From a virus, in the IMG/VR virus record IMGVR_UViG_3300031673_000374, positions 1 through 27,798 of that record: a DNA stretch of 27,798 nucleotides. One strand, given 5' to 3'. This document shows, piece by piece, positions 3,443 to 27,025 of this stretch. Below the pieces are notes generated by a model. That model had not been told where the DNA came from and searched no databases. It was given only the letters and a program-made list of their open reading frames with translations. Position numbers and translations under genes: made by a program. Numbering within the stretch: the stretch's first letter is position 1; the number at the start of each line of letters is the position of its first letter.

Positions 3443-5278
3443 CTAACCGTGATACTGCGGACGGCCAGTATCCTTGATGGGCATGAGGATGTCGGGCCGC
3501 GGCCGCACAATCATCGAGGCCAGGAGACAGAGCAGGATGCTGTGGAACGAGTCGTCCGTCTTGCCTGGTGCCTTCTTGTACTCGGTCATCCGCAGACGTT
3601 CGTTGTACTCACTGAAGATGTTGAGAATGTCAGTGCCGTAGGGCTCAACAAAGTCGTTCCAGCAGGGCAGGTCGATGAGGCGCCGCTTGAGAGCGTTGAA
3701 CACGTCGGTCATCACCTCGGAACGGTGGCACATAAACCGGCGGAGGTTCTCCTCCCAGTACACCTTCTTCTTTTGCCTCGGGTTGTACTGGTACTTCATG
3801 ATCTTCTGCGGACCGTGGCGCCGCATCAGCGTGTCGTTCGGGTGGAAGCCGCCGCCGTAGTCCGTACCCACGACGATGGCACCGAGCTGCGAAATCATCT
3901 GGCTGATGATGTCGAGCTGGCGATCGGGCTCGAGGTCCGGCCCGGTGAATCGGTGGATGTAGAAGATGGTGAAGTTGCCCGTGCCGAGGTAGCCACCAAA
4001 AGTGATGACCGTGTAGCTCCGGCCGGACTCTCCCGTACCCCAGTCGATCCCCCCGAAGACCTGCCGACCTTGAACAAGCGTCCGTACTTCGTCGATGTCT
4101 TGCAGTCGGATGTGGGGCTGGCAGCATGCCTGAAGCTGTCCCCTGGTTAACGGCCGCACGCCCGAGTCGTACGACATGCCCAGCTTCTCGTTGAAGAACG
4201 ACGACCGGCTATACTGCTCCTGCGCCTCCAAGATCTCAGGCCAGTCCACCCACGGCACCATGATCTGTGGGATGCGATAGCCCTCAAAGGTGACGCGCTT
4301 CTCGTTGTCCGGCGTGCGGGGCTGTAGCGCTGCCCACTTGGCTTGAGGATGGCGCGCGTCGATGGTCCTCCGACATCGGTCGCAGATCAGCCCACTCTTG
4401 CCGATGTTGGACTCGTCCAACACGTTCCAGTGCCAGCTAGAAGGATCTTTCGGCGTGCCGTGTCTCTCACAGGGGACTACCCACTCGTTCTGAGTGGAGA
4501 ACTGGGACCAGTAATGCTCGATCGTGTTGTCTTCCGACTTCGGCGTGCCGGAGTAGAGGAACAACTTGAACTTCGAATGGAAGGCGCACTGCTCGATGAT
4601 CGGAATGTTGTCGACCAGGATGTCCTGGAGCTCGTCGATGCAGATGAGGTCAGCGGGGATGCCGCGGACACGGTCAGCCGTCAGGTAAGCGTAACGCAGC
4701 CTGATCTGTGAGAAGTTGATGAACTTCTTGAAGAAGACTGCCTGATTGATTTTGCTCGGGGTGTAGGCGCCCAGCAGCGGTGAGTTCTCTACGACATCCT
4801 TGATGCGATCGCCCGAGAAGACCTTCGCCTGCTCCGCTGAGGGTGCGACGAACAGCGACCGGAAGTTGCTGGTGAGTGCGGAGTAGCACAGCAGCCTGTT
4901 GCCGATCGTAGTGGACTTCTCCACCTGCCTACCGCACTTGAGCAGCACCTTGTCTGACGGCGTGTCGTAGATCCGCCGGAGGTATTCGCGCCCCGTGAAA
5001 TCGAAATCGGAGATGCGGCCAGCCTCCGGAATGCGGATGGCCGTCTCAGCAAATTCAGAGGGGGAGATGTTGTAGGTGGCGTGCTCGAGGGCGCCAAGGC
5101 CGGCGACGTCACCAGGCGTAGGGTCTGGAGGCTCCGCGTCGAACTCGAAGTCGAGCGGGTTGCCGTCGTCATCGTAGTCGAACCACGGCTCTTTGATGGC
5201 ACCATCGACTGACCACAAGAGAGGGATCGTCGCTGCAGTTTTGAGGACAGCTGCCTCTGATAATTGGATCGTCGACAC
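3443..5278 (-). CDS. terL: Terminase large subunit (packaging ATPase/nuclease)
   Basis: A 611-aa protein starting at GTG 5278, with AGGA about 8 nt upstream. The N-terminal ATPase shows a Walker A variant CGRQVEKST (residues 115-123, Lys121), Walker B LICIDE (211-216, Asp215/Glu216) and the coupling motif SGTPKSEDN (243-251). An inserted zinc-knuckle-like element follows (Cys270, His273, Cys299, Cys302), as known from GpA-type large terminases. The C-terminal RNase H-fold nuclease carries GGIDWGTG (Asp412), VVGTDYGGG (Asp473) and KTDDSFHS (Asp575/576), so all three metal-binding acidic positions are present. The motor docks on the portal, pumps DNA into the prohead and cuts the concatemer. 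No small terminase was identified; the two hypothetical genes immediately upstream are candidates by position. The 232-bp upstream gap is unusually long for this genome and holds a candidate RNA. Confidence 0.95.
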   Translation of the reverse strand: MSTIQLSEAAVLKTAATIPLLWSVDGAIKEPWFDYDDDGNPLDFEFDAEPPDPTPGDVAGLGALEHATYNISPSEFAETAIRIPEAGRISDFDFTGREYLRRIYDTPSDKVLLKCGRQVEKSTTIGNRLLCYSALTSNFRSLFVAPSAEQAKVFSGDRIKDVVENSPLLGAYTPSKINQAVFFKKFINFSQIRLRYAYLTADRVRGIPADLICIDELQDILVDNIPIIEQCAFHSKFKLFLYSGTPKSEDNTIEHYWSQFSTQNEWVVPCERHGTPKDPSSWHWNVLDESNIGKSGLICDRCRRTIDARHPQAKWAALQPRTPDNEKRVTFEGYRIPQIMVPWVDWPEILEAQEQYSRSSFFNEKLGMSYDSGVRPLTRGQLQACCQPHIRLQDIDEVRTLVQGRQVFGGIDWGTGESGRSYTVITFGGYLGTGNFTIFYIHRFTGPDLEPDRQLDIISQMISQLGAIVVGTDYGGGFHPNDTLMRRHGPQKIMKYQYNPRQKKKVYWEENLRRFMCHRSEVMTDVFNALKRRLIDLPCWNDFVEPYGTDILNIFSEYNERLRMTEYKKAPGKTDDSFHSILLCLLASMIVRPRPDILMPIKDTGRPQYHG

Positions 5279-5332
5279 TGATCTATCCTACCGCAAGACT
5301 TCCACACCACCAGGTATAAGAAAGATAGTCGG

Positions 5333-5356
5333 GTCAAACGCTAGTGAGTGTTTGAC
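5333..5356. promoter_or_regulatory. Inverted repeat with GTTTGAC arms
   Basis: GTCAAACGCT (5333-5342) and AGTGTTTGAC (5347-5356) pair over 10 positions including one G-T, around a 4-nt loop AGTG. Each arm presents TTTGAC in opposite orientation, and another GTTGAC follows at 5367-5372. It sits between the terminase start and the candidate RNA. It could be an operator, divergent -35 boxes or an RNA hairpin. No -10 box at proper spacing was found for either direction. Confidence 0.45.
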
Positions 5357-5373
5357 AGAAGCCAGCGTTGACT

Positions 5374-5512
5374 GTGGGGCTCATCCCAGGACTCCAATCC
5401 AAGTGCGGAGGAAGCCTGTGGAACTGGAAACGACGTGTTGTACCGCTGGCAAACCAGTCCACCGACAGGGATGAGCCTTACCAATCACTGCCGGCGAAAG
5501 CCGGCATTTTCT
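5374..5512 (+). ncRNA. Candidate structured small RNA next to the terminase gene
   Basis: Bases 5374-5387 pair with 5468-5481 in an unbroken 14-bp helix. Two of the pairs are G-U on the plus strand; on the minus strand they become A-C mismatches, which argues for a plus-strand RNA. Inside are a 9-bp helix with one bulged A (5418-5427 with 5454-5462) and a possible 4-bp helix (5392-5395 with 5407-5410), giving a three-way-junction-like fold. Seven nt after the closing helix comes a GAAA-loop terminator ending in TTTTCT. No convincing coding frame or tRNA shape is present. The RNA would be antisense to the terminase leader. Its 5' end is uncertain: a TATAAG at 5315-5320 could be a -10 box, which would also place the inverted repeat 5333-5356 in the transcript. 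Confidence 0.5.
5489..5512 (+). terminator. Rho-independent terminator with GAAA tetraloop
   Basis: TGCCGGC (5489-5495), GAAA loop, GCCGGCA (5500-5506), then TTTTCT. The GNRA loop and T-tract are both in plus-strand orientation although both flanking genes are on the minus strand, so a plus-strand transcript must be its target. The tail overlaps the end of the minus-strand gene that stops at 5511. Confidence 0.7.
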
Positions 5513-6032
5513 AGCCCCCAACCCTGAGAGCCACACGAGAGAACGGCACCTCGAGCTGCGCGTCCGTCATGGGCACCGGGGTGTTGGGTATTGGTAGCAT
5601 CACCGACCAGCTATCCACCTCTGAGTAGTAGGTGATCTTGTGTGGATGGTACTTGAAGTGGTCGCTGAACACCTCTTCGAGGATGGTCTCGATCTCGGGC
5701 CACCACGGGTGCTCCGCCAGCGTTTGGTTCGCGCGGACTGCGATCTCGGACTGCAGTCGATCGCGCTGCACCTGGTCCACGACTTGGTCGCGCATCTCAT
5801 CCATGTCAGCGTGCGCTTGGTCGTAGATCTCTTTCCGGTCGCGCTTGTAGAAGTGGTAGATGAACAGGTCATCCTTCTCTGTCCACGCCCCCACGACATC
5901 GCCCTTCTCGACCTTGTTCAGCTCGGGGACTCCCTCCTCGAGAGCGCCAGCCATGTCGTTCTGCGGCGTGCCTTTCAGGCCATCCTTCTCATCATCCGTC
6001 ACCCAGAAGGGCTTCTTCTCGATCTCAGCCAT
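5511..6032 (-). CDS. Hypothetical protein upstream of terminase, 173 aa
   Basis: The start is set at ATG 6032 because GGAG lies 6 nt upstream, inside the end of the previous gene; the two genes overlap by 8 nt. Longer in-frame starts would overlap the neighbour far more. The protein is acidic and hydrophilic. The first part (about residues 1-60) is Asp/Glu/Lys-rich, the middle (65-120) is helical with many charged residues (RDRKEIYDQAHADMDEMRDQ), and the C-terminal part (125-173) looks beta-rich (HKITYYSEVDSWSVMLPIPN). No known family was recognised. Being immediately upstream of the large terminase, it could be a packaging or head-tail completion protein; this is inference from position. Confidence 0.75.
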   Translation of the reverse strand: MAEIEKKPFWVTDDEKDGLKGTPQNDMAGALEEGVPELNKVEKGDVVGAWTEKDDLFIYHFYKRDRKEIYDQAHADMDEMRDQVVDQVQRDRLQSEIAVRANQTLAEHPWWPEIETILEEVFSDHFKYHPHKITYYSEVDSWSVMLPIPNTPVPMTDAQLEVPFSRVALRVGG

Positions 6033-6918
6033 CGTCATCTCCATAGTCTTCGGCCACTGGTTCAGCTTCGTCCGTGCCCGCTCCCGACTTGGAGTAGTTG
6101 GGCCCGGCGACCTCTTCAATGGACGGCACCGCGCCGGCGTCGTCCTTACGCAAACGGAACTTGTCGAACGCCGAGAGAACGTCCTTGAGTGCCACGTCAC
6201 TCTGGCGCATCTCGGATTCGGCAGCTTTGATCACGTCCATGTAGTTCTTCATCATCTTCGAGTGAGCCAGCGTTGCTGGTTGCCTCTCGACCTCGAGCAC
6301 CTTTAAGAAGGCCACGTCTCGCATCCGGCGCGCGACGGTCCCAGTGTTGAGGCTGGGCGGCGGGCCCGACAGGCCAGCTACCCAAGGCACCATCGACTGT
6401 GCCGTGTCCGGACTGGCGCGCAGCACAGTGATGCTGTCGTACGCTTCCGGCCTGCCGTCGAGGTAGTTCACCCATTCGTGCATCGCCAGCAGCGACTTGT
6501 TCCAGAAGTAGTGACCGAACGCCTCGAGCCCGGCCACCGTCAGCGAGATGCTGTGGTGCTTGTTCAGGCGAGTAGTAACCTCCTCCACCCGAAGGGGGGA
6601 GAGGAGCAGCTGCTGCACGTTCGCGCGCAGCTGTGGAGTGGTGAGTATCTTGTACGCCTCCTTTACCGAGGCGTGTGGGTACCAGAGGTTGGCGATGCCG
6701 TGCTTCTTCAGGTAGCGCCGCGTCTCCGTGTCCCCTGTCTTGGTCGGCTCCCAGGGATCGGGGAAGGGGTCCATCGTGACCCTGAGTTGGTCGATGTAGC
6801 GACCAGTCAGGCCGTCGAGCCCGTAGTTCTCCAGCAAGCGCAAGATCGCGTTCGTCTCATGCTCCTGCTGCGAGATGAGGAACTTGATGAAGAACTCACT
6901 CGGTGAACGCTCCGCCAT
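6025..6918 (-). CDS. Hypothetical protein, 297 aa, in the terminase operon
   Basis: It starts at ATG 6918, 2 nt after the stop of the 673-aa gene, with only a weak AGGCG as ribosome binding site. Residues 1-220 are helical and rich in Trp/Tyr/Leu; residues 225-297 become acidic and disordered, ending EDYGDDDG. A segment around residues 95-150 (LRVEEVTTRLNKHHSISLTVAGLEAFGHYF onward) could form a helix-turn-helix-like fold, and an FWNK motif is followed by a helix. Position two genes before the large terminase makes a small-terminase or DNA-recognition role conceivable, but no diagnostic motif is visible. A weak resemblance to the protein at 21061-21954 (also 297 aa, also with FWNK) was noted. 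Confidence 0.75.
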   Translation of the reverse strand: MAERSPSEFFIKFLISQQEHETNAILRLLENYGLDGLTGRYIDQLRVTMDPFPDPWEPTKTGDTETRRYLKKHGIANLWYPHASVKEAYKILTTPQLRANVQQLLLSPLRVEEVTTRLNKHHSISLTVAGLEAFGHYFWNKSLLAMHEWVNYLDGRPEAYDSITVLRASPDTAQSMVPWVAGLSGPPPSLNTGTVARRMRDVAFLKVLEVERQPATLAHSKMMKNYMDVIKAAESEMRQSDVALKDVLSAFDKFRLRKDDAGAVPSIEEVAGPNYSKSGAGTDEAEPVAEDYGDDDG

Positions 6919-6920
6919 AA

Positions 6921-8942
6921 CTACGCCTGCGGGACTTCGCCAAGGGTTTTCAGCCCAGCTACCACCTTGTCGAGGTGGACGAGCGCCTTCTGGACGGCTC
7001 CCTCATCCACGGATTTGAGGCCCATGCGAGAAGCCATCAGCAACTCAGACAGCTTCTTGATCACCGCCTCGATCTCCGGCATGTAACTAGCGAAGATGGA
7101 GATGTTCTCTGGGTTGATGAACCCAACGCTGAGGATCTTGTCCACTGCCGTCGGGTCTTCCATCGGGGCAGCTTCTTTCAACAGGTCAGCACGCAGGTTG
7201 GGCATCCTGTTGAGGAGCTTCGACGCGCTCGAGCGCGCCTCTGCGTACTTCACTTTGAGCGTGGTCACCGGCGTGGCGTTGAACCAGAGGTCCGTCGCAC
7301 CGCGGCCACGCATGTTGTCCAGCAAGTGCGCCAGCTTCACAGGCTCTTCGCCCAGGATAGTGCCGAGGAACACGGCGTCGTCCTTGTCGAGGAACTCAGT
7401 CGGCATAACGCCGGCGAGCTTCTCGATGGGCTGCCCCTGGAAGGTGTAGCAAAGACCGTCGGTCAGGATGCGCACCGCCGTCCCAATCGTCAGAGCCTCC
7501 GCTGTTTTGGCGAACTCGTCGGGGCTCGACGCCAGCTTGGTGTCGTTATTCAGGGGTGCCCAGCCCATGTCCTCGGGCATCCCGTAACGGCCGGTGGCGA
7601 TCTGCGTGACCTTCTTTAGCCCCGGGACCTTGGACACCTGGCAGCCCTCACCCATCACAGTCTCGGCGATGTAGGCTGTGCCCTCTGGCGTCTCGGTCGA
7701 GCCCCGGACCATCATCGGGACCAGGGCCTGCGCTCCACTCGGGGTGGCGTAGTAGAAACATCCCAGCCCATCAGGCTCCGTGTCGAGGACGTCCGTGCTG
7801 CTGCCCACCGGCACGCCCGCAATGTTCTCCTGCATTGCGGACTCGCTGCCATTGGTGAACACCGCCATCGGCAAGAGCTCACCTGTCAAGTCCATCACTT
7901 TGGGGAAGACCCAGCCCACGAGCTCGGTGCCTTCCCCCTGGACCTTGACCTTGTAGAGGCCAAACTCATCGACCACCTTGATGATCAGGTCCTCGAGAGT
8001 CTCCTTCACAGCTGGCTGGGTGGTGATGGTCGTGGTGCCGTCACGCTCCACCGCAGAAACCAAGTCCCCGCCCAGCGCCCCGACCGCGGCAGGACGATCT
8101 ACGTCGTCCGCCGTAGGGATGAGCGCCTCTGGGTTGGCCGTCTTGATGCGGAAGCCGCCCGCGATCTTCTGGATCTGCACGACCTTCGGCTTGATGCCGT
8201 AGGCCGCCGACTTGAACATGTCCTCGCCGGTCTGCCCCAGCGGCTGGGAGTAATGCATGTCAGCCAGCTTGGCGATGAACGGGAGAGCTGCTTCGTTGCC
8301 CAACAACGCAGCGCGCAGAGACGGCTCGTCATTGAGCCTGTCCTCGAGCGCGTCGATGTGCGCCTTCTTGATGGTCGGCAAGATCGCGTCCATCAGGAAC
8401 TCAGGGCGAGCTGCAGCGGTCTTGGCACCGCCAGCACCCGCACCAGATTCGGCGACCAACGGCCCCCGACCACCACCGTACTGACGATGGGGTGGGTAGA
8501 GCTGCTCGATCATCGACATGTCGCCCGGACGTTTCCGGACAGCCTCGAAGAGGTTAGGGCGGAAGAGCGCGCGCCGAAGACGGTCCTCGGTCAGCGGCTC
8601 GACCATGCCATCGTTGAGCAGCAGGTCGAGCGGCTTGAGCTTGCCGTCCTGGATGATGACCGGAACGAGGACCTTCTGCGTTCCCTTCGACTCCTCGGGA
8701 GTCGAGTCCGCACGCGGGCTGATGGCCAGCTTATTCAGCAGCTCGATCTGACCCATCCCATAGCGCCGGTCGTTGTCGACGTCACGCAGGACCACCTTCG
8801 GCATGTAGTCACTGGTGAACGGCGCCTGCTGGTAGAGCTGGTCCAAAATCTGCTTGGGCCATTCGTTGGCGTCCTCGGAGAGCCGCGCTTCCATGCCCAG
8901 CTTTTCGAAGGTGAGAGGTACTCTGTCGAGAAAAAGGTCCAT
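6921..8942 (-). CDS. Large virion-type structural protein, 673 aa
   Basis: It starts at ATG 8942, preceded by AGGAGA at a good distance. The N-terminal region (1-110) carries basic and acidic patches (VVLRDVDNDRRYGMGQIELLNK), followed by a Gly-rich linker near 155-180. A large mixed alpha/beta central part (180-560) contains many short beta-like segments, and the C-terminus (590-673) is helical. K-x-A motifs (FKSAAY, FAKTAEA, LLKEAAP) recur as in other virion-type proteins here. The gene lies between the baseplate spike and the terminase operon, so a tail, baseplate or virion-core protein is the most likely role. I did not recognise a family and saw no catalytic motif. Confidence 0.75.
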   Translation of the reverse strand: MDLFLDRVPLTFEKLGMEARLSEDANEWPKQILDQLYQQAPFTSDYMPKVVLRDVDNDRRYGMGQIELLNKLAISPRADSTPEESKGTQKVLVPVIIQDGKLKPLDLLLNDGMVEPLTEDRLRRALFRPNLFEAVRKRPGDMSMIEQLYPPHRQYGGGRGPLVAESGAGAGGAKTAAARPEFLMDAILPTIKKAHIDALEDRLNDEPSLRAALLGNEAALPFIAKLADMHYSQPLGQTGEDMFKSAAYGIKPKVVQIQKIAGGFRIKTANPEALIPTADDVDRPAAVGALGGDLVSAVERDGTTTITTQPAVKETLEDLIIKVVDEFGLYKVKVQGEGTELVGWVFPKVMDLTGELLPMAVFTNGSESAMQENIAGVPVGSSTDVLDTEPDGLGCFYYATPSGAQALVPMMVRGSTETPEGTAYIAETVMGEGCQVSKVPGLKKVTQIATGRYGMPEDMGWAPLNNDTKLASSPDEFAKTAEALTIGTAVRILTDGLCYTFQGQPIEKLAGVMPTEFLDKDDAVFLGTILGEEPVKLAHLLDNMRGRGATDLWFNATPVTTLKVKYAEARSSASKLLNRMPNLRADLLKEAAPMEDPTAVDKILSVGFINPENISIFASYMPEIEAVIKKLSELLMASRMGLKSVDEGAVQKALVHLDKVVAGLKTLGEVPQA

Positions 8943-8951
8943 CGATCTCTC

Positions 8952-10235
8952 CTATGCAGTCTTGACCACTGTGCTTAGCATCGACTGCAGCGCAGGCGCC
9001 TGTACAGGCGGAAGCGTAGGCAGCGCAGGCGGCCCCGGCGCTGGATCTGGCAGCGCTTTGACTAGATGTGTGTGTGTTCCAAGCCACGCCACCAATTTTG
9101 CCCCAAGAACCGCAGGTTCAACAGCCCCTGGTCCACCAAGAGCCAAAGAAGCAGCGCCAATGACCTTAGCACCTGACCAGGTCTCCGTGCTGCTTACCCC
9201 TTTGAGGGCGTGCGTGGTCTTGAGCACGGTGTCTTGGCTCAAGGCCGTCACCGATTGCGCGCCAGTGATGGCGACAGTCTGCGCGCCTTTGATCGTAAGG
9301 CTGTGGTCCCCGTCGATCTCTTCCGTACGCTTCAGCGCTTGCATGACGAACGTATTGCCCGCTTTGTCCAGCCGGATCACGTACTTGGGCTTGCCGGAGA
9401 CCTTGCCGTCCGACGGATCTATGCTCTGCGGTGCGATGGTCAGCTCTAAGAACGTCTTGTCTCCGCCGGGCGGCTTGGTGGCGTCGTCCAGCGAGCCGAG
9501 GCTGACCTTGATCGATGCGTTCTTGTCCTGAGCAAACTCTCGAGCGATGAGGACGAACTCGCTAGGCGCGTTGCCGGCGGGGTCGTTCTCCACCCGCTGC
9601 ACACCCCAGCTCAGAGAGCCTGCGGCAGTGTTCAGCTCGTAATTCTCGCAGAAGTCCCGGATAACATTGAGCAGCGGGATGTACGCGCGCTGACAGATGT
9701 GGGTCGAGCCCAGCTGCAGCACGCCGCCGCGGCGCAAGGCCACGAAGTTGTCGTCACGCCCCTGCCACAGCATGTCACCAGGGTTGAGGACGGGACGGCC
9801 CGCACGGAAGCTGGCGTCCGAGGTATTCCCTCCCGTGTTGGTGGAGCCTCCAGCTGATGTGCCCTTAGCCTGGGGGACATCTTCCTCAGTCTCGACACCA
9901 GGATCTTCGAGCACTGAGGTGAGGTCCTTGCCGAACGCCGCGCCCTCAAGTTCCGGTGCGCTGAGGAAGCCAAGCACGAACGGAGAATCCTCATCCGAAG
10001 GGAAACACACGACGCAGATAGCCCCGACCTCTGGCACGCAGGTGAAGCCCTCTCCGTTGTTGTAGTGGAGATAAGGCGTCATGATCTGCAGGTCCGGGAT
10101 CTGCTTGCCGGTGTACTGGGATACCCAGTCGACCGTCAGGTTCCGGACGTTGACATTCGCTATCGTCCCCGACTCGATCTGTGCTTCATCAATATCAGAG
10201 GACGGGAGCGAGTTGTCAAAGGAGGTCTCAGGCAT
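8952..10235 (-). CDS. Baseplate spike protein (gp5/gpV/VgrG-type OB fold)
   Basis: A 427-aa protein starting at ATG 10235 immediately after the TAG of the previous gene. Residues about 20-95 match the OB-fold of contractile-tail spikes, with the hallmark VPEVGAICVVCFPSDEDSPFVLGFL (67-91 region: P-x-V-G, then a strand, acidic turn and V-x-G). Residues 100-150 are a Gly/Ser/Thr linker. From about 290 to 365 short repetitive strands (SLTIKGAQTVAITGAQSVTA) suggest an intertwined beta-helix shaft. The C-terminus has the TH-T-H motif and a Pro-rich tail as in gpV-type spikes, where His residues bind a metal at the tip. Trimeric spikes of this kind sit under the baseplate and pierce the outer membrane. 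This is the main evidence for a contractile tail. No lysozyme domain is present, unlike T4 gp5. Confidence 0.85.
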   Translation of the reverse strand: MPETSFDNSLPSSDIDEAQIESGTIANVNVRNLTVDWVSQYTGKQIPDLQIMTPYLHYNNGEGFTCVPEVGAICVVCFPSDEDSPFVLGFLSAPELEGAAFGKDLTSVLEDPGVETEEDVPQAKGTSAGGSTNTGGNTSDASFRAGRPVLNPGDMLWQGRDDNFVALRRGGVLQLGSTHICQRAYIPLLNVIRDFCENYELNTAAGSLSWGVQRVENDPAGNAPSEFVLIAREFAQDKNASIKVSLGSLDDATKPPGGDKTFLELTIAPQSIDPSDGKVSGKPKYVIRLDKAGNTFVMQALKRTEEIDGDHSLTIKGAQTVAITGAQSVTALSQDTVLKTTHALKGVSSTETWSGAKVIGAASLALGGPGAVEPAVLGAKLVAWLGTHTHLVKALPDPAPGPPALPTLPPVQAPALQSMLSTVVKTA

Positions 10236-10556
10236 CTACCGGTAGCCCTGCTGCTGCCGCTGGCGCCCGCCGCCGAGCGCTTTGTACCCGCCGTAAGCAG
10301 CTAGGCCGCCTACGCCAGTAGCAGCTGCCATCGAGCCGTAGCCGGACTTTCCGAGCGCCTTCAGGCCGCCCTTCTGCCACAGTCCCTTAATGGCGCCGCC
10401 GTGCCGCTTCAGCGCGGTCCCCGCTCCAACGCGGCGCGCACCCGAAACAGCACTGCCAAGGCCCTTGAAACCCTTCGCCAAGAAGGAACCCACGCCAGCC
10501 TCCTTCTGGATCTCGGCGACTTCCTCGGCAAAGGCGCGCAGCATCTGCTCAGTCAT
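10236..10556 (-). CDS. Small Gly-rich virion-type protein with KEAGVGS signature
   Basis: A 106-aa protein starting at ATG 10556 in a TGATG overlap with the end of the RNA polymerase gene; GAGGAG inside the polymerase C-terminus is its ribosome binding site, so synthesis of the two is linked. Residues 1-20 form an acidic amphipathic helix ending in IQKEAGVGSFLAKGFKG, the signature shared with the protein at 20195-21064. The rest is basic and Gly-rich with a terminal glycine-zipper segment (AAATGVGGLAAYGGYKALGGG) and a QRQQQGYR tail. It has the look of a membrane-active or DNA-packing virion component. Being wedged between polymerase and spike, it may help package or deliver the polymerase; that is inference. 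Confidence 0.7.
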   Translation of the reverse strand: MTEQMLRAFAEEVAEIQKEAGVGSFLAKGFKGLGSAVSGARRVGAGTALKRHGGAIKGLWQKGGLKALGKSGYGSMAAATGVGGLAAYGGYKALGGGRQRQQQGYR

Positions 10557-13500
10557 CAGTACTCTCCTCTTTTCGTGCCCTTGCCTATCTCCGGCCCGAA
10601 GACCACTGGAGGTATCGGGTGCTTACCATGCAGCTTGCTGGTCCACCCCTGCTGAGAAGCACTCACGACCGTGTCCTTGAGTCGTTCGTGGTTCAGCCGA
10701 GCCATCCAGTCCTCCTGCATGTCCAGCGGCAACATATCGACACCCTTCAAAATAGGGCGATGTCGGATCGGCTGCCGGCCTTTGACGGCGTGCCGGTTCA
10801 GGTTAGCAACCCTGGACGTTGGTGCATAGTCACCACGAATGAAATCCTTGTGCCCACCAGGGTCTTCGATCTTGGTCAGGTTGGTCAAGGCTTTCACAAC
10901 CATTTCGGTATTCCGGCGCCGGATGCCGTGCGGACCGTAGATCTTGTGCAGCTCCCCCGACAAGTACCCCTGCACCGGCTCTACCCCTGTGAGGGGGAGC
11001 ATCTCATGGGGATTCACAGGACCGAGCGAGAGCGCGGAGCCTTTGCGTACCTGCATCCCACTCCTGAGCTGCTTGCCCCCGTACATAGGGACGCCCCGAG
11101 CTCTCGGAATGTAGTGCCGCTTGCCCCCCACAAACACGTTGTAACCGCCGGCCGGATCTTGCTGGACCTTGTCGACCTTCCCAGCCATCGTGCTGAGCGT
11201 TGCTGAACCCGGAAGCGTAGTTGGGAAGAGGGTCAGATCTTTGACGCGCTGGAACTCGTCAACGATATCCTCCTTCGATGCCGCGGTGCCGCCCGTGTGA
11301 AAAGCTTTCATCGCCAGCTGTGTGGAGCGTTCGCCCAGGGCCTGGCCAGCCAGGATGCCGACGTTGAGCCCCACCTCTGGCGGCTGGCCGTCTTCCGTCA
11401 AGCCGTAGCACTTCTGACAGACGCCCGGGCCATGCTGACAACGGAGCGGGGAGCGAACCAGCACGCGCCCCACCTTGTTGTTGCGCAGCGAGCTCCGGAT
11501 CTCGGGAGTTACCAACGTGCCGGCCTTGAACAGCTTGCGGCCAGACTTCTGGTCCGTCGCTAGGTGGCGGTCGAGGATGTCCTTCTCGTCCGTAGAAAGG
11601 GCGATGCCCTTGTCCGTCCCACAATCCTGGTCGACGATCGAGTTGTCCATCACCGAGTTCATCACGCGCTTGGATACCCAGCCAGGCTCTGACACCTGCT
11701 GCACCTTCTGGATGATTCCTTTGCGCGCCCCGGACATGTTAGTCCAGTAGTCCGCCACGTCCAGCCCTTCAGCAAACGAGCGCTTCACTGGCTGAGGGAT
11801 GGTCTCGCCCTTGGCGTTGGTGATCAGCATGGGAGCCATCTTGATCTGACGGAGAGCGTCCCGGCCTGGTTTGATACCAGATCGGTGCATCTTCAGCAGG
11901 GCGCTGTCCTTCTCCGGCAGCTCATCCAGTCTGCGGTGCATCTCATCGGTCGCCTTGGCGTAGATCTGAACTGCCTTGGCGTCCTTCTGCGCCTGCGTGC
12001 CTGTCAGCTTTGCGACTGCGCGGTCGGCTGGCGCCATCACCGAATCCCTCATGGCCTTTTCCGGCTTGATGTCCTCCAGCCCGATCGAGAAGGCGGTGTC
12101 GGTGCCCCAATGGTTACCAAGGTCTTTCAGCTTGTTGATCGACTCGCCGTAGTCGTTGCGGTGATCCTTCGCCAGCGCAGTCAGCACCTCGTTCTGACCA
12201 GCCTTGTCCATGGCCCCCTTGCGCTTGAGGAAACCCTTACGCATGGGCTCCGGCAGCGCCCCGGCCACCATGAACCGGCCTGTCGTAGAGCTCAATCCAC
12301 CAACCCTGATCTGGTCAGTGAGCCCTATCTCGCCCTTGCGGGAGGCGCTCTCCACCTCCTTCATGGTCTTGAAAGTCTTGCTGGTCTTCTTCCCTACCTG
12401 CGTGATTCCGTACAGACCCAGCTGCGACTCTAGCGTTGGCTTGTACATCAGGTCGCCAGTCGAGGGACTGAAGAGGTTGCGCGACGGGTGCATCTTGCGC
12501 GCCTCCTCCACGGCCGCCGAGCTGATGGGGACGAATGCTCCCATCGTGTCGCCATCGAAGTCCGCGTTGAAGCCCGAGGTGACCAGTGGGTGGATCTGCA
12601 CCGCCTTGCCCTGGATAATCCGAGGGGTGAACGCTTGCACGTTGTACTTGTGCAGCGCTGGGTCGCGCTTCATCAACAGCGGACGCTCGGACACCACGCG
12701 ATCGAGCGCCCGAGCCACCATCGGGCCGCCGTCCTTGATCATCTGCTGCGCCTGCAACGGCGTAGCACCAGTGAGGTTTCGCAGTTCCCGAACCACGAAT
12801 GGCTTGTATACCTCGGTAGCCGCAGCGCGCGGGAGCCCCACTTCATCAAGACCCAACGAAGGATCGGGGACGATGGTCGACCGCATCGAGAGATCTTGCT
12901 TGCGCTTAACCAGCTTATTCTGGAAGAACCCCTCCTTGGGGGAACCGACTTTCCTACCTGTCTTCCCAGGCTCAGGACGCTTGCCGCTGATGATGTCGAT
13001 GACGCCGCGAAACTCCTTGTTCATGTGGCCGCCGAGCCCTGTCAGCGATCGCAGGCCGTCGTAGACCTCGGCGCGGACCTCGTTCTTCTCCTCGTCCGGG
13101 GCCAGCGGGTTGAAGTTCTTGAGCTGCTTGGCTGACAGGGAGATGCCCTTGTACATGTGGTTGAGGTCGTCAACGTTCAGGTCGCCGTTGGGCAGCTGAG
13201 ACACGGGGCGCATGGACGGCGGCAGAATCGGGACGTTCTGCATCATGTACGCGTCCTTGGCCGACAGCCCCGCATTGTCGAGCGCGCGCAGATACTTGAC
13301 CTTCTTGTTGGCCTGGTCCAGCCGGTTGCCCTTGAGTTTCGGATTCTTCAGCGCCGTGTGGGCTGCCGCGAGCTCCGTCTTGACGTCGATCTTCCCCAGC
13401 ATCGTGCTGAACGCCTTGCCCCCAACGATCCCATTCTCCACGTCGGTGGTGACCTTGCCCGTCTTGGGGTCGATAGCCTTCCGGCCAGCGATAATATCGT

Positions 13501-16500
13501 TGAACTGCGTGCCCGTCACACCCGTCAGTGCTTGAATCGATTTCTCGAAGACGGGGTTGGGGAAGGCCTCAGGCAGCCGCATGTGGCTCCACTTGGTCCC
13601 TTCAACACCTCCCGTCACGGTGGGGTCGAACAGCCCTCCCTTTTCGGCCTTGAGGTCCTTAGCTCGGACCATCTTGCCGCCATCCTTGATCGCCCCGTTG
13701 CTCATCTCCTTCACCTGTGAGTCGGTGAAGGGCACGAGCTGCAGATTGTTGCCTTCCTTCTTGACGTTGACTCCCACGCCATTGAGGTAGCTGGTGAACT
13801 TCTTGTAAGCGAATGTCGGCCGCGGCGCGGGGAGAGTCTCGCCGGCCTGCAGCGCTGCCCAGAACTCATCGTTCTGTCCGGCGTCGCTCTTCAGCGTCTG
13901 CATCTCACGGAGGTTCTCCGTCGCTCCGTGGGCCAGCATAGAATACAACCCCAGGGTACCCAGTGCCTGCGCACCATGAGGGCCACCACCCTTGGGAATC
14001 AGATTGCGATCGTACGCATAGCCGGGGCCGCCGGCGCGAGCTCGCGCCTTCGTCTCAACCTGTTGCTTGAGCTTGAGGATGTGTTGAGGGCCCACCAGCG
14101 CCATGCCCATGGCGCGCCCCGTCTCCGGGTCGAAGACCTCTTCCTTGTCGGTGAGGCCATGAGACTTCAGGTCAGCCGTCACCTGAGCATGCAGGTCCGT
14201 GTTGGGCTGGAAGTTCTTAATATTGTATGGCTTGCCTGTCTTCTCTGCGATCTTGCCAGCCGCAGTCTCAAGCACCTGGCCCAGGTTCACGCGGCCAGGG
14301 ACGCCCGTGGGGTTCAACAAGATGTGCAGCGGGTTGCCGTCCTTGGTATGCGGCATCTCCGAGTCCGGGATGATCTTCGTGATGATCCCCTTGTTCCCGT
14401 GACGCCCCGCAATCTTGTCTCCGATCTCCGCAGCCTTGAGGGTCCTGACGTGGACCGCTGTCTTCTTGCCGCGCTTGACCACCTCTTCGACTACGCCAGG
14501 GTGGTCGGCCTCCCACTTCACGCTCGCGTCAGCGTAGGGCTTGACCAACGACTTGTGCATCTTGGAGAGCTCCATGTCCTCCGCACGGTCGGTCTTCTCT
14601 CGCAGGGCAGCGATCAACGTGTCCCCCGGCATCACCAACTGCCCATGCTTCATCACGCCATCGTCATCTAGCTTGTCGGCCTGCTCTTTCGAGAGCCCGT
14701 CGGGCGTGTACGCTTGGAACTTCTTCTTGTCGAGGATGTGGGTCTTGTCGCGCAGCAAGGTGTTGCGGTGCAGGTGTTCGCTGGAGAGCTTCTTCGATGC
14801 GCTCTCGCTGATCACCACACCGTCCTCAAAGTTGTAGCCCTTGTAGGGCATGTACCCAGTGCGCAGGTTGGTGCCCAGTGCCAGAATCCCGTCCTTCGTG
14901 AAGTTGGTGTCGGCTAGGGTCTGGCCCTTCTTCACCTTGTCGCCGACCTTCACCAGCGCCGTAGAGTGGATGAACCCCTTGTCCGCGTTGAGCGGGAAGT
15001 TGTCGTAGAGCTGGACCTCGCTCTTTTTGCCCTTGGAGTCTTTAACGATCACCCCATCCTTATTGACCGCCACGACCTCACCAGCAGTGTGCGCCCTGTG
15101 AGAAGCAAAACCACCGACGACATTTTCAAAGGTCTTGTTCCCTGCCAAGCTCTGGACTAGCGGCGCCTCGCGGGCAGCGAGAGGGATCGCCTGCTCCATG
15201 TGGCGCCCGGCCATCGTGCTGCGGTTGGGGTGGTCTGCCGCCACGAATGGCACCAGGTTAGAGGCCATCGAGAACATCTGTATTGGATCGCGCATGACAT
15301 ACTGCGCATCCTTCAGAGTACCCTCCGTCATCTCGTTACCAGGAGCTGATAAACGGATCTTGCTCGAGGCTGCGACGGGTTTCCCTTTCTCCCACCGCAC
15401 CTGGTCAGGCAAAGCGAACGTCGAGTTCATCACCTTCTCGGGATTGATCTGCTCGTTCCTCCCCGTCTTGGTGTTGTACATCATGATCTTGACGTCGTGC
15501 CCGTCCTTCTTCACGCCAATCGGCAGGCGTAGAGAGACTCCCGTGCTCTTGCCTTCAGGCGTGTGGATCGGGTCGAGAAATCCCAGGTGCGACGGATCAA
15601 CCAGCTTGGCGTCTTCCGAGATGCCGTGCGCAGACTGGATGCCGCCCTTGCCTGTGATGGTCGTCTTCATCTGACCGCTGATCATCTCGAGCGGGTTGGT
15701 CTGGTCAGGGACGTTGGCCAAGGTGGTGCGGTACATCTCCCGTATCGGACGATTGAATGTGTCCGGACCGATGATCTCGCCCACCTTCGTCCGCCGGTCT
15801 AGCGTATTCTTCACGCGGCGGTGGATGTCCTTGCCACTATCCGCGATGCGCTCGGCGAAAAAGTCCTCCGCGCTGTGCAACTCCTTGAATGGCAGCGCGT
15901 CTCGAGAGTCCGGCTTTGCCTTGCCCTGAGAGATGTGGAGCAGCTTGGTAGCCCCATCCATCAGAGCATTGCCCGTGACGTTCTTGTGCCCGCGGCCCAG
16001 CGTGACCTTGGTAGTATCCTCCCGCAACTTGGAGCCGTTCATCGTGGTCCACAGATGCTCGCGCGCCGTCTCCAAGTCAGCCGGCTGCTCACCCGTCGAC
16101 GCCTTGTAGAACTTGCGCAGAGCCTTCTCGCTGTCCTGCGCGTTGGCTCCAGAGATTTGCTTGCCCCACTTCGCCTCGATCTCCTCTTGCCCCACACCCA
16201 GCTCGCGCATCAGCGGTTGCAGCGGGATGTTGGAGGTCCCGTAGTTCATCGAGAATTCACGGGACTTCGGGTCGAATCCTACCTTGAATCCGCGGCCCTC
16301 CTTCACGTTGTAGTCCGCGCTGAGCTCGCCGTTATCCTTGACCCGTGCGTAGACGCCCTGCTTCAGGCGCCACTGGTTGTCGATCTGGTACTCCTGCCCA
16401 TCGACGATGTGGGAGTAGCGGCGAGTGTGCTTGGGAAGACTGAGGAGCCGGAGGCTTTGCTGGTCGACGACCTTTCCGGAGGTGTTGTCCCTCAGCACAA

Positions 16501-16711
16501 CGTCAGCTTCGACCGGCACAGACCATGTGCGGTTGCCGAGTTTCGCCTTCTTCTGTGATCGGATGTCGTCAATGTGCAGGTCATCGTTGACCTGCACGCC
16601 CTTGAGTTCCAAGGTGTGCTTCTTCCCTACGATCGGGAAAATGCCATCGACTGTCTTAGCCACCCGGTCTTTTAGTACTTTGAACCCTTCCTCTGGAGAC
16701 AGGCGTGCCAT
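10556..16711 (-). CDS. Single-chain beta-beta' DNA-dependent RNA polymerase
   Basis: A 2051-aa protein from ATG 16711, chosen because it overlaps the stop of a 28-codon leader ORF (TGATG) and begins with MARLSPEEGF as the leader does; a GTG at 16732 is also open. Beta motifs come first: a lobe segment (QIDNQWRLKQGVY, about 109-121), the rif-region-like DPIHTPEG (380-387), GYNFED (625-630), GDKIAGRHGNKG (764-775) and LKSD (940-943). Beta' motifs follow: PILPPSMRP (1161-1169), the catalytic NADFDGD (1382-1388; Asp1384, 1386, 1388), GARKG (1661-1665), a zinc site (Cys1697, 1758, 1765, 1768) and QALGERSTQLAMKAFHTGG (1790-1808). The beta' N-terminal Cys4 zinc domain is absent. E. coli beta plus beta' total about 2750 residues, so this is a compact fusion. 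No alpha, omega or sigma gene is visible nearby. Location among virion genes suggests a packaged polymerase. Confidence 0.95.
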   Translation of the reverse strand: MARLSPEEGFKVLKDRVAKTVDGIFPIVGKKHTLELKGVQVNDDLHIDDIRSQKKAKLGNRTWSVPVEADVVLRDNTSGKVVDQQSLRLLSLPKHTRRYSHIVDGQEYQIDNQWRLKQGVYARVKDNGELSADYNVKEGRGFKVGFDPKSREFSMNYGTSNIPLQPLMRELGVGQEEIEAKWGKQISGANAQDSEKALRKFYKASTGEQPADLETAREHLWTTMNGSKLREDTTKVTLGRGHKNVTGNALMDGATKLLHISQGKAKPDSRDALPFKELHSAEDFFAERIADSGKDIHRRVKNTLDRRTKVGEIIGPDTFNRPIREMYRTTLANVPDQTNPLEMISGQMKTTITGKGGIQSAHGISEDAKLVDPSHLGFLDPIHTPEGKSTGVSLRLPIGVKKDGHDVKIMMYNTKTGRNEQINPEKVMNSTFALPDQVRWEKGKPVAASSKIRLSAPGNEMTEGTLKDAQYVMRDPIQMFSMASNLVPFVAADHPNRSTMAGRHMEQAIPLAAREAPLVQSLAGNKTFENVVGGFASHRAHTAGEVVAVNKDGVIVKDSKGKKSEVQLYDNFPLNADKGFIHSTALVKVGDKVKKGQTLADTNFTKDGILALGTNLRTGYMPYKGYNFEDGVVISESASKKLSSEHLHRNTLLRDKTHILDKKKFQAYTPDGLSKEQADKLDDDGVMKHGQLVMPGDTLIAALREKTDRAEDMELSKMHKSLVKPYADASVKWEADHPGVVEEVVKRGKKTAVHVRTLKAAEIGDKIAGRHGNKGIITKIIPDSEMPHTKDGNPLHILLNPTGVPGRVNLGQVLETAAGKIAEKTGKPYNIKNFQPNTDLHAQVTADLKSHGLTDKEEVFDPETGRAMGMALVGPQHILKLKQQVETKARARAGGPGYAYDRNLIPKGGGPHGAQALGTLGLYSMLAHGATENLREMQTLKSDAGQNDEFWAALQAGETLPAPRPTFAYKKFTSYLNGVGVNVKKEGNNLQLVPFTDSQVKEMSNGAIKDGGKMVRAKDLKAEKGGLFDPTVTGGVEGTKWSHMRLPEAFPNPVFEKSIQALTGVTGTQFNDIIAGRKAIDPKTGKVTTDVENGIVGGKAFSTMLGKIDVKTELAAAHTALKNPKLKGNRLDQANKKVKYLRALDNAGLSAKDAYMMQNVPILPPSMRPVSQLPNGDLNVDDLNHMYKGISLSAKQLKNFNPLAPDEEKNEVRAEVYDGLRSLTGLGGHMNKEFRGVIDIISGKRPEPGKTGRKVGSPKEGFFQNKLVKRKQDLSMRSTIVPDPSLGLDEVGLPRAAATEVYKPFVVRELRNLTGATPLQAQQMIKDGGPMVARALDRVVSERPLLMKRDPALHKYNVQAFTPRIIQGKAVQIHPLVTSGFNADFDGDTMGAFVPISSAAVEEARKMHPSRNLFSPSTGDLMYKPTLESQLGLYGITQVGKKTSKTFKTMKEVESASRKGEIGLTDQIRVGGLSSTTGRFMVAGALPEPMRKGFLKRKGAMDKAGQNEVLTALAKDHRNDYGESINKLKDLGNHWGTDTAFSIGLEDIKPEKAMRDSVMAPADRAVAKLTGTQAQKDAKAVQIYAKATDEMHRRLDELPEKDSALLKMHRSGIKPGRDALRQIKMAPMLITNAKGETIPQPVKRSFAEGLDVADYWTNMSGARKGIIQKVQQVSEPGWVSKRVMNSVMDNSIVDQDCGTDKGIALSTDEKDILDRHLATDQKSGRKLFKAGTLVTPEIRSSLRNNKVGRVLVRSPLRCQHGPGVCQKCYGLTEDGQPPEVGLNVGILAGQALGERSTQLAMKAFHTGGTAASKEDIVDEFQRVKDLTLFPTTLPGSATLSTMAGKVDKVQQDPAGGYNVFVGGKRHYIPRARGVPMYGGKQLRSGMQVRKGSALSLGPVNPHEMLPLTGVEPVQGYLSGELHKIYGPHGIRRRNTEMVVKALTNLTKIEDPGGHKDFIRGDYAPTSRVANLNRHAVKGRQPIRHRPILKGVDMLPLDMQEDWMARLNHERLKDTVVSASQQGWTSKLHGKHPIPPVVFGPEIGKGTKRGEY

Positions 16712-16797
16712 CAGTTCACGTGCGTCCAGCACTCAGGCGCTTTTTCATTCCGATCATCGAGAGCATTAAAGCCCTCTTCCGGTGAAAGACGTGCCAT
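16711..16797 (-). CDS. 28-aa leader peptide duplicating the RNA polymerase N-terminus
   Basis: ATG 16797 has AGGAG 7 nt upstream (16809-16805), the best ribosome binding site in this leader. The peptide begins MARLSPEEGFNALDDR and ends at a TGA whose last base is the A of the polymerase ATG (TGATG). The polymerase begins MARLSPEEGFKVLKDR. The first ten residues are identical, yet codons 3-10 all differ at the third base (CGT/CGC, CTT/CTG, TCA/TCT, CCG/CCA, GAA/GAG, GAG/GAA, GGC/GGG, TTT/TTC). Identity continues at L13, D15, R16 and K19 and then stops. This looks like an old tandem duplication in which the peptide sequence, not the DNA, was kept. The likely role is translational coupling or reinitiation for the polymerase, or a copy of a functional N-terminal tag. 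Confidence 0.65.
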   Translation of the reverse strand: MARLSPEEGFNALDDRNEKAPECWTHVN

Positions 16798-16941
16798 TTA
16801 GCAGCTCCTATGTGCGTCCCCGTCAAGCTACCAGACTGGTGCTCTCACGAGCAACGTAAAAATTACACGCAGTTAGTTATAAGGAGGATGTAGGAGATAC
16901 TTCTGTCGCCTGCGATCAACCACCTATGTAAGGAGAGCAGC
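16798..16941. promoter_or_regulatory. Divergent regulatory region between polymerase and second plus-strand island
   Basis: The gap separates leftward and rightward genes. It holds the leader ribosome binding site (16805-16809, minus), a near-palindrome around ACCAG-A-CTGGT (16830-16840, extended imperfectly to 16826-16843), a small inverted repeat TGCTC-TCAC-GAGCA, and an AT-rich patch at about 16855-16883 ending in TATAAG (16878-16883). AGGAG for the plus-strand gene is at 16931-16935. No sigma70 pair with good spacing was found in either direction, unlike the other divergent gaps. A phage-specific promoter under operator control is therefore plausible. Confidence 0.4.
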
Positions 16942-17091
16942 ATGAGCAATTACTTCGGCCCAAAGGATCCTGACGAAGAGACGAACAGCAACGGGCAAGA
17001 TTCGACGAGAGATTTTGAAGAGGATGTCGACGACCAAATCAGCGGCGACAGCAACGACGACGACGGCAACGACGAAGGCAACGACGAGTAG
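16942..17091 (+). CDS. Small, very acidic protein, 49 aa
   Basis: ATG 16942 follows AGGAG with a 6-nt gap, a near-ideal ribosome binding site. After a short MSNYFGPKDP head, almost every residue is Asp, Glu, Asn, Gly or Ser, with runs such as FEEDVDDQ and NDDDGNDEGNDE and only two basic residues, Lys8 and Arg23. It should be disordered and strongly negative. Small acidic phage proteins sometimes mimic DNA to block host nucleases or nucleoid proteins, but that is only an analogy here. It is the first gene of the second plus-strand island and is coupled by a TAGTG overlap to the next small frame. Confidence 0.65.
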   Translation: MSNYFGPKDPDEETNSNGQDSTRDFEEDVDDQISGDSNDDDGNDEGNDE

Positions 17092-24656: not shown

Positions 24657-24730
24657 AGGGCTTACCGCCAGCGGCTAAGGTCCTCGAATTTGATCACTCA
24701 ACACCCACCTTCAACGATTACAAGCACTTG

Positions 24731-24759
24731 GAATTTCCGGCGCCGAGCGCCGGAAATTC
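24731..24759 (+). promoter_or_regulatory. Perfect 13-bp hairpin before the helicase ribosome binding site
   Basis: GAATTTCCGGCGC and GCGCCGGAAATTC are exact reverse complements around a 3-nt CGA. GGGAGGAG, the helicase ribosome binding site, starts at once after the stem. No T-run follows, so it is not a terminator. It could gate translation, protect or process the mRNA, or be a DNA palindrome bound by a dimer. A long gene-free leader is unusual in this compact genome. Confidence 0.7.
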
Positions 24760-24769
24760 GGGAGGAGAG

Positions 24770-27025
24770 ATGACCGACCTTAGCTTCGTGCGGAGAGACC
24801 CCGACAAAGGGTACTTCGGCAGGCAACTCTGGCTGCCGAAGGCACACATCAACACCCGGTCCGTGAAGCGCGGACTGGAGTTCCCTATCATGGATGATGC
24901 GGGGATCAGCTACTTGCAGCTGTGGCGGGATGCGGGGGAACACTTGGTGGTTCCTCGTGAGTTCCTATCCAGGGAGGAGTACCAACATCTCCCGTTCCCC
25001 ATCGTCTCTGTTCAACCGGCATCCTTCCCTCGTGTGGCATTCGTCAGCCGCGTCGAGCTGGACAAGCAGAAGCCGGAGATGAACACACAGCGCGACGCTT
25101 TCGCCGCCATGCTGCATGCGAAAAGCGGCCTGCTCAACCTGGCCTGCGTTGCGGGCGACACGAAGATCAACTTCAACCGAGGCGGCAAGGGATTCTCGAT
25201 GACCATCGAGAGTGCTCGCCGCCGCTTCTATGGAGCTGAGAAGCGGAGCAGCTACAACTGGAACCGGGATATCCCAACCCGTGTTCGATCGAACAAAGAG
25301 GGTGTGATAGGTCTCCATGAGATCGACGACATTCTCTGGAGAGGGAGACGCCTTACACGCACGTTGACGCTTGTCGACGGCAAGCGCCTGCGCCTGACCG
25401 ATGACCACAAGGTGCTGACAGTGCGTGGCTGGGTCGAGCTCCGACACCTCAGCGTCGGCGACGAAGTCATCACAGACGGAAAGCGAGACGCCTCAGAACG
25501 AAAGCCGAAGCAGGTCTACAAACGTCTGAGCTGGTATCCAGCGCATCCTCATGTACGATCACAGAAGCGGAAAGGCCGTAAGGCGCTCTGCTATGCGATC
25601 GAGGAACACCGAGCGGTTGCTGAAGCTGCTCTGAATGGTTTGTCGCTCGAGCAGTTCAGAGAGCGATGCCGCTCAGGAGACGTGGCGGGTCTGCGGTTCA
25701 TCGACCCCAGCCGGTACCACGTCCACCACATCGACGAGGACATCCAGAACAACGACCCGTCGAACCTTGAGGTGCTACCTCATTCTGGTCACCTCGACAA
25801 GCACCGTCCCGGTTCCAAAGCATTTGGTTATGGGATTCCGACGCCGGTGCGGGTCAAGGAGATCAAGGAGGGACGCTACGAAGATGTCTATGACATCGTC
25901 TGCAAAGACCCTTACCGCAACTTCGTGGCAAACGGGATAGTGATTCACAACTGCGGTAAGGGCAAGACAATCTTGGCGCTGCACTACGTCGCACACAAGC
26001 AGGTCCCCGCGCTGGTGATAGTCAACAACACGACGTTGATCAACCAGTGGCGCTCACGCATCGAGCAGTTCCTTGACGTACCCGGCGGGATTGGCGTTAT
26101 CCAAGGCCCGCCGGAGAAGTGGGACTGGGAAGGCCGCGGCATTGTGCTGGCCATGATCCACACACTATCGCTGCGCGCCAGCGAAGTTCCGCCAGGGATG
26201 GACAGATACTTTGGCCTCGTCATCTACGACGAGGTCCACCACCTGTCCGCCCCGCTGTTCGTCCAGACCGCTCCAATGTTCTACGGAGAGCGGCAGGGAC
26301 TTACCGCAACCACAGATAGGGAAGACGGCCTCGAGCCGATCTACCAATACCACGTTGGGGACGTCTACCACCGGGACCTTTCCCAGGAGATGAAGCCACG
26401 AATCTACTTTCAGCAATGTCCGGTCAGGCTAGACCCACATGACCCTGCTGTGGTGGAAGGTATCTACGACGCTCGAGGACGCATCAGCGTTCCCAAGCTC
26501 AGGACATATCTTGGGACTCTTCCCGAGTGCAACGAGTTCATAGCCGACAAGCTACGAAAGCCTCTTCTTGCGGGGCGCAAAATCCTGGCATTGAGCCACA
26601 GTGTTGATCAGCTACGAGCCCTCAACGAGATGTTCGAGGACTCAGGACTGTGCACTGGAAAGGAGAAGCCCGCCGCAAGAATCCAAACCCTTCGTGAGAA
26701 AAATCTTACCTTCGGAACCTTGCAGTTGGTGAAGGAGGCTCTGGACGAAGCGACGTTGGACACCCTCTTCTTCCTCACGCCGTTTGGTAGCGCCCATATC
26801 GATGACGGGGGCGCCAACACACTGCAGCAGGGGATGGGGCGCATACAACGCCATCTGGACGACAAGCGAACCCCCGTGGTCGTGATCATCGACCACATCT
26901 ACATCCCGAAGTTCCACCGCATGTGCAGCCACCTCAAGCGGCTCATTCATAATTGGCCGGCCGATCAAGGTGGGCCACTCGACTACAAGATTCTCAGACC
27001 CTATACCGAGGAGGAAGTGAAGTGA
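24770..27025 (+). CDS. SSL2/XPB-like SF2 helicase interrupted by an intein
   Basis: ATG 24770 follows GGAGGAG; an upstream in-frame ATG (24728) would include the hairpin and is rejected. The precursor is 751 aa. Residues 126-394 are an intein; the spliced helicase would be 482 aa. After splicing the P-loop reads ACGKGKT (A125 joined to C395). Further SF2 motifs: a Ia-like region (ALVIVNNTTLINQW, 414-427), DEVH Walker B (487-490), motif III TAT (512-514), and motif VI QGMGRIQR (687-694). Layout and spacing resemble SSL2/XPB/UvsW-type DNA helicases. The N-terminal 100 residues are a phage-type substrate-binding domain. It may act in replication, recombination or repair. The downstream genes overlap by GTGA, including a uracil-DNA glycosylase, which favours a DNA-repair or replication operon. 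Confidence 0.9.
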   Translation: MTDLSFVRRDPDKGYFGRQLWLPKAHINTRSVKRGLEFPIMDDAGISYLQLWRDAGEHLVVPREFLSREEYQHLPFPIVSVQPASFPRVAFVSRVELDKQKPEMNTQRDAFAAMLHAKSGLLNLACVAGDTKINFNRGGKGFSMTIESARRRFYGAEKRSSYNWNRDIPTRVRSNKEGVIGLHEIDDILWRGRRLTRTLTLVDGKRLRLTDDHKVLTVRGWVELRHLSVGDEVITDGKRDASERKPKQVYKRLSWYPAHPHVRSQKRKGRKALCYAIEEHRAVAEAALNGLSLEQFRERCRSGDVAGLRFIDPSRYHVHHIDEDIQNNDPSNLEVLPHSGHLDKHRPGSKAFGYGIPTPVRVKEIKEGRYEDVYDIVCKDPYRNFVANGIVIHNCGKGKTILALHYVAHKQVPALVIVNNTTLINQWRSRIEQFLDVPGGIGVIQGPPEKWDWEGRGIVLAMIHTLSLRASEVPPGMDRYFGLVIYDEVHHLSAPLFVQTAPMFYGERQGLTATTDREDGLEPIYQYHVGDVYHRDLSQEMKPRIYFQQCPVRLDPHDPAVVEGIYDARGRISVPKLRTYLGTLPECNEFIADKLRKPLLAGRKILALSHSVDQLRALNEMFEDSGLCTGKEKPAARIQTLREKNLTFGTLQLVKEALDEATLDTLFFLTPFGSAHIDDGGANTLQQGMGRIQRHLDDKRTPVVVIIDHIYIPKFHRMCSHLKRLIHNWPADQGGPLDYKILRPYTEEEVK
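25145..25951 (+). mobile_element. HNH-endonuclease intein in the helicase P-loop
   Basis: A 269-aa in-frame insert begins with Cys (CVAGDTKI, block A), has block B (LTDDHKVLT with the Thr and His of splicing, residues 210-218), block F (VYDIVCKDPYRNFVANG, 373-389) and ends IVIHN before Cys395 (block G). All splicing residues are present: Cys1, block-B His, penultimate His, terminal Asn and a +1 Cys. Between blocks B and F lies an HNH module (YHVHHIDEDIQNND, 316-329, then SNLEVLPHSGHLDKH), a compact homing endonuclease in place of the more usual LAGLIDADG. Insertion in the ATP-binding loop means the helicase is inactive until splicing and the intein cannot be imprecisely lost. Bounds are inferred from motif positions and the restored P-loop. 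Confidence 0.93.

Follow-up and report, generated by a model that had tools for sequence, protein, structure and literature searches.

The stretch of DNA analysed here, which we call the window, is a 27.8-kb viral fragment comprising positions 1 to 27,798 of IMGVR_UViG_3300031673_000374. Its minus strand encodes a fused β–β′ RNA polymerase of 2051 amino acids (10556–16711), a single chain with both Rpb2 and Rpb1 domains (Pfam RNA_pol_Rpb2_6, Rpb2_3, Rpb1_1, Rpb1_2 and Rpb1_5). The polymerase gene heads a cluster on its own strand (3443–16711, minus) that reaches TerL (3443–5278; phrog_675), an arrangement that suggests co-expression with virion genes; the genes at 8952–10235 and 6921–8942 had no Pfam or PHROG family match. 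Inspection revealed a promoter-like sequence, TTGCTC-N18-TAGCTT, at 16825–16854 (minus), and a TTGC...GGTAG pattern recurs 5′ of the polymerase in many relatives. A conserved CTTATA(C/A)C box lies 5′ of the polymerase promoter in many relatives, at 16865–16890 in the window (GGTATAAG on the other strand). It suggests a pair of divergent promoters whose −35 regions overlap; the window's divergent gene (16942–17091, plus) encodes a very acidic 49-residue protein. Further away, at 24728–27025 (plus), an intein splicing domain, accompanied by an HNH endonuclease, splits a ResIII-type helicase frame (Pfam PF04851, PF14890 and PF13392).

Two scans of IMG/VR yielded about 80 loci of this polymerase, roughly 40–75% identical, and in the closer relatives the polymerase itself begins M/V/L-ARLxPEEGFxxLKDR. 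We found no close DNA relatives among named phages. Matches in metagenome-assembled genomes fell in Eisenbacteria and Deltaproteobacteria bins; these may be co-binned phage contigs and are no basis for a host claim. Metagenomic tailed phages encoding β and β′ domains of a multisubunit RNA polymerase have been described as mReC Caudovirales (PMC7481178), in a paper whose main text mentions neither regulation nor the RNA element described below; the phages studied here probably belong to the same broad group.

In the window, the polymerase start is preceded by a second, closely similar start. An ATG at 16797 (minus) opens a 28-codon leader open reading frame (16711–16797), MARLSPEEGFNALDDRNEKAPECWTHVN*, which ends with TGA at 16713–16711, and the polymerase ATG at 16711 (minus) opens MARLSPEEGFKVLKDR.... 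A preliminary description of this DNA had reported that the two ATGs are 86 nt apart, that each encodes MARLSPEEGF and that all eight of codons 3–10 differ at the third base only. A sequence check found these statements exact (CGT CTT TCA CCG GAA GAG GGC TTT in the leader, CGC CTG TCT CCA GAG GAA GGG TTC in the polymerase), and the peptide repeat runs on to codon 16 (FNALDDR in the leader, FKVLKDR in the polymerase). The same description correctly gave the upstream copy a good AGGAG, which we locate at 16805–16809 (minus), and noted that the leader stop overlaps the polymerase ATG as TGATG. The equivalent stretch before the polymerase ATG has no such Shine–Dalgarno sequence. A predicted transcript start falls shortly 5′ of the leader AGGAG, and it is at this AGGAG that ribosomes probably enter the polymerase mRNA.

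The leader matched the start of the polymerase with E=8e-5 (tblastn within its own record), so the repeat is not a chance match; the same search found no third copy. The repeat also covers the 5′ side of both ATGs: GGACGCAC is present at 16812–16819 (minus) and again, in the downstream copy, at 16720–16727 (minus), where 6 nt of the duplicated 5′ leader, AGGAG among them, are missing. This indicates that the leader arose by tandem duplication of the beginning of the polymerase gene together with its 5′ leader, and the proposal that it is the remnant of a duplicated gene is thereby borne out for the gene start. The first 30 nt of the leader agree with the polymerase gene of one relative (L002) at 30 of 30 positions, as against 22 of 30 for the window's own polymerase copy; thus the leader keeps the common nucleotide state, and it is the polymerase copy that has changed.

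We found that the leader contains an RNA hairpin at 16750–16782 (minus), beginning at its nt +16, with the sequence CCGG-AA-GAGGGC-UUUAAU-GCUCUC-GAUGA-UCGG. It consists of an outer stem of 4 bp, a 2×5 internal loop, an inner stem of 6 bp and a 6-nt loop, with a possible stem extension (UUUCA/UGAAA) pairing 16787–16783 with 16747–16743. The stem was located by a sliding pair count, and the minimum-free-energy fold includes the same stem. In relatives that carry the hairpin within the coding sequence, codons 6–16 of the polymerase read CCGG-AA-GAGGGN-NNNNNN-NYYCUC-RARGA-YCGG, which has the same two-part stem and asymmetric AA/RARGA internal loop. We examined covariation in 26 loci (24 distinct sequences). 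Across the distinct sequences, 90% of stem cells overall and 96.5% of those in the inner stem were paired, and the covariation score exceeded 500 of 500 shuffles and every slid register, with changes on both sides of two inner-stem pairs and one outer pair. Covariation in the coding-only subset likewise exceeded every shuffle; in five displaced sequences taken alone, the inner stem was 100% paired and two pairs had changed on both sides. One inner-stem pair is mostly G-U, and the conserved molecule is therefore the sense-strand RNA. This RNA is conserved as a structure. Single-sequence folding energies of hairpin-bearing stretches were unremarkable (z −1.7 to +0.5), and Rfam gave no family match at gathering score.

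The hairpin is specific to the polymerase gene, as expected of an operator. A covariance model (R2) built from five upstream copies of other viruses only found the window's leader hairpin at 16750–16782 (minus; E=4e-8) and recovered 18 of the 18 coding copies of its training complement; it did not find the window's polymerase copy. Model R1 also found the window hairpin. Each long viral record had a single strong R1 site, invariably where the polymerase begins; one record (G001) additionally matched more weakly within its polymerase codons. When 2.9 million viral contigs were scanned for the exact pattern, there were 8 hits, all of them at polymerase starts. The element is thus single-copy in the records examined. 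It was undetectable in the deep MAYLDPxEAF clade and in the two cultured distant relatives checked, Vibrio phage D69 and Salmonella phage Arash, and was absent from named-phage protein relatives, which are only 31% identical. Members of a deep clade (L054, L055, L060, L075, L076 and L096–L104) have a different promoter-like pattern 5′ of the polymerase, TTGC...GGxGTAnnCT, with no detectable hairpin; this pattern would leave a very short 5′ leader.

Comparison of the loci revealed two positions for the hairpin. In 22 relatives it is written in polymerase codons 6–16. In 9 to 10 other loci, the window included, it precedes the polymerase gene, and the polymerase codons there no longer fully form it. 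In the window, the corresponding codons (16696–16664) form only two of the six inner pairs. The same hairpin stands just before the polymerase ATG, with no ATG-led frame matching the leader, in L005/6, L010, L031 and L044/53. Divergent versions lie upstream in L046/105, L016/27 and L041, and a related structure in L043; the copies in L016, L041 and L043 were recognised partly by eye or by a kink-turn-constrained search with a background of about 10% per 225 nt. Like the window, L019 has an ATG-led leader, here of 51 residues (MARLDPEEGLRALKDR...); MARLDPEEGL is intact in this leader, which overlaps the polymerase start.

Because the protein constrains the coding sequence, we compared each polymerase copy with a null in which codons 6–16 were recoded using each genome's own synonymous usage while the protein was held. 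The inner stem was better than this null in 21 of 22 coding copies (P 0.004–0.10 each; the exception was L047) and in none of nine polymerase copies from displaced lineages (P 0.45–1.0), the per-locus P values not being independent because the loci are related. Synonymous identity in loci with a coding hairpin was 0.70 in codons 6–16 versus 0.45 in codons 17–60, and codons 7, 8, 13 and 15 had zero synonymous variation; the values for displaced loci were 0.39 versus 0.46. These contrasts indicate that the hairpin is in one place or the other, and the coding and upstream positions are therefore essentially mutually exclusive. Hairpin decay is incomplete in the polymerase codons of L005 and L046, which retain five of six inner pairs. 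Signs that selection actively keeps the polymerase copy from forming a second hairpin were suggestive in the window, L044 and L016 (P about 0.02 each) but absent from the other six displaced lineages, so we make no such claim.

On this evidence, what these phages have conserved is a hairpin near the beginning of the polymerase mRNA, and the repeated peptide is a by-product. In the window, one copy kept the RNA and the other the protein: the leader copy retained the RNA element and Shine–Dalgarno sequence, and the downstream copy lost both and drifted synonymously. The all-synonymous pattern arises because the upstream copy was constrained as RNA and the downstream copy was freed of the RNA but not of the protein. 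A tree of the polymerase minus its first 30 residues needs nine changes between coding and upstream states, at least five of them forced by well-supported branches. The hairpin has thus relocated, in one direction or the other, between the beginning of the coding sequence and the region immediately upstream on at least about five occasions. The upstream copies of L005, L010 and L031 have a similar loop (CUUGGR or CUAGGA); some of them may be of one origin, a point on which the tree does not decide.

The geometry of the two positions bears on function. Coding copies begin at nt +16, which is at the leading edge of the initiating ribosome or just beyond it. Non-coding copies span −50 to −8 and end 7–16 nt before the start codon, adjoining or overlapping the Shine–Dalgarno sequence. 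The distance from hairpin to start codon thus takes one of two values, and by inspection the distance to the promoter-like TTGC...TAGCTT is apparently unfixed. A conserved hairpin beside the ribosome-binding site of the polymerase gene is what an operator would look like, and since the hairpin is allowed only at positions flanking that site, we infer that it acts in cis as a translational operator.

We therefore favour, with a probability of roughly 0.6, the reading that the hairpin is a translational operator of the fused β–β′ RNA polymerase mRNA, working in the window through the leader and reinitiation at TGATG. Duplication of the gene's 5′ end in several lineages would have supplied a second copy, allowing the RNA and protein constraints to split. 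In the window, the upstream copy kept the ribosome-binding site and, within a 28-codon frame, the hairpin, so that the operator would lie at +16 of the leader, which holds the sole good Shine–Dalgarno sequence, and the polymerase start would be reached by termination–reinitiation. Polymerase synthesis would then probably depend on reinitiation, which is plausible because the polymerase copy has no AGGAG of its own and its start overlaps the leader stop; on this point the preliminary description, which had proposed that reinitiation tunes polymerase synthesis, remains plausible. The element would probably be an on/off site for making the polymerase. The hairpin alone hides neither the AUG nor most Shine–Dalgarno sites, so an operator must have a ligand, which we assume.

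More speculatively, and by analogy with T4 gp43, the ligand could be the polymerase itself, acting by autogenous repression. In T4, the gene 43 operator combines a hairpin, located about 40 bases before the start, with sequence that covers the ribosome-binding site (PMC3014915). As in the T4 and RB69 gene 43 (DNA polymerase) operators, the element here lies in a phage polymerase mRNA, and its displaced copies span a similar stretch. Unlike those operators, it belongs to a fused multisubunit RNA polymerase, its stem is divided in two by a conserved asymmetric internal loop, and it is most commonly found within the coding sequence; autoregulation here is by analogy only.

The internal loop suggests a possible mode of recognition. 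The long strand reads CUC-NNN-G-A with an A on the short strand opposite the G, which is the kink-turn arrangement of a 3-nt bulge followed by G(1b)-A(2b) opposite A(1n). The long-strand G and A are invariant, and A(1n) is present in at least 90% of sequences. In coding copies, A(1n) is the free third base of codon 7, which is GAA in every examined coding relative with Glu there. The standard kink-turn G at 2n, which would give tandem sheared G-A and A-G pairs, is not found; almost every sequence has A, C or U at 2n instead. A structure exists for a non-standard kink-turn with A at 2n, Thelohania solenopsae Kt-23 (PMC3985660), which shares with the element the 3-nt bulge followed by G-A on the long strand opposite A(1n). 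The element differs from kink-turn RNAs in its short and variable outer helix and in being known from sequence alone, and no L7Ae-family gene was found in 11 phage records; a host L7Ae-family protein could still be the binder. These features are suggestive only of a loop that folds as a non-standard kink-turn. At the same place in L043 (3653–3682), CCCC-UGU-GA-GGAC-GCA-GUCC-GA-GGGG resembles a standard kink-turn whose orientation is opposite to that of the loop in the rest of the family. We advance only tentatively, as possible but doubtful, the fuller proposal of an undescribed RNA family. In it, the multisubunit RNA polymerase of these phages would shut off its own translation by binding to a kink-turn-like hairpin of its mRNA, and the operator, tolerated both before and after the ribosome-binding site, would have left the coding sequence for non-coding positions again and again through duplication.

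The same hairpin might instead be an intrinsic mRNA element, acting in 5′ stability, RNase processing or the tuning of early elongation or initiation, with no bound protein. The structure, its place near the predicted 5′ end and its single copy per genome fit this equally, as does the accessibility of the AUG and Shine–Dalgarno sites. We consider it unlikely, though worth keeping in mind, since the strict retention of internal-loop bases, including 1n A at a free third base, suggests recognition, and a mere stability role needs no abutment on the ribosome-binding site. An antitermination or polymerase-modifying RNA, like HK022 put or lambda nut, would suit an element that stands at the head of a long run of minus-strand genes, TerL among them. 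This is improbable, given that in most relatives the element lies within translated codons, where ribosomes would strip the RNA, that its place is fixed relative to the start codon and not the promoter, and that each genome has only one strong locus.

The preliminary description had favoured amino-acid selection on both copies, the leader peptide possibly being a decoy copy of a packaging or docking tag. The intact MARLSPEEGF of the window and its counterpart in L019, both overlapping the polymerase start, speak for a selected tag, decoy or regulatory peptide. However, an ATG-led in-frame leader is kept only in these two among about ten displaced cases, and the hairpin stays in the rest: in L005/6, L010, L031, L044/53, L016/27, L041 and L046/105 the short frame has no ATG or is out of frame, and the RNA is preserved. 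That description had named loss or frameshifting of the leader in relatives as evidence against its reading, and this is nearly what we see. The peptide is dispensable in relatives, where a regulatory leader peptide would have a conserved frame; the fixed nucleotides alone dictate most of its residues, and no MARLSPEEGF-like tag occurs elsewhere in the window. Selection on the peptide itself is thus very unlikely. A DNA-level site (promoter part, operator or packaging signal) is hardly credible: it would account for a short conserved sequence near a divergent promoter region, but it fits neither the frequency of G-U pairs and compensatory changes, which concern a single strand, nor a site that moves relative to the promoter and keeps set places relative to the start codon.

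Read as a translational operator, the hairpin would illustrate clearly how the opening codons of a phage polymerase gene can contain a regulatory RNA, with natural duplications separating the RNA constraint from the protein constraint. It also serves as a warning that synonymous-only repeats can signal selection on RNA and not on peptide. The fused multisubunit RNA polymerases found in environmental phages have been little studied, and the hairpin provides a compact candidate operator for them.
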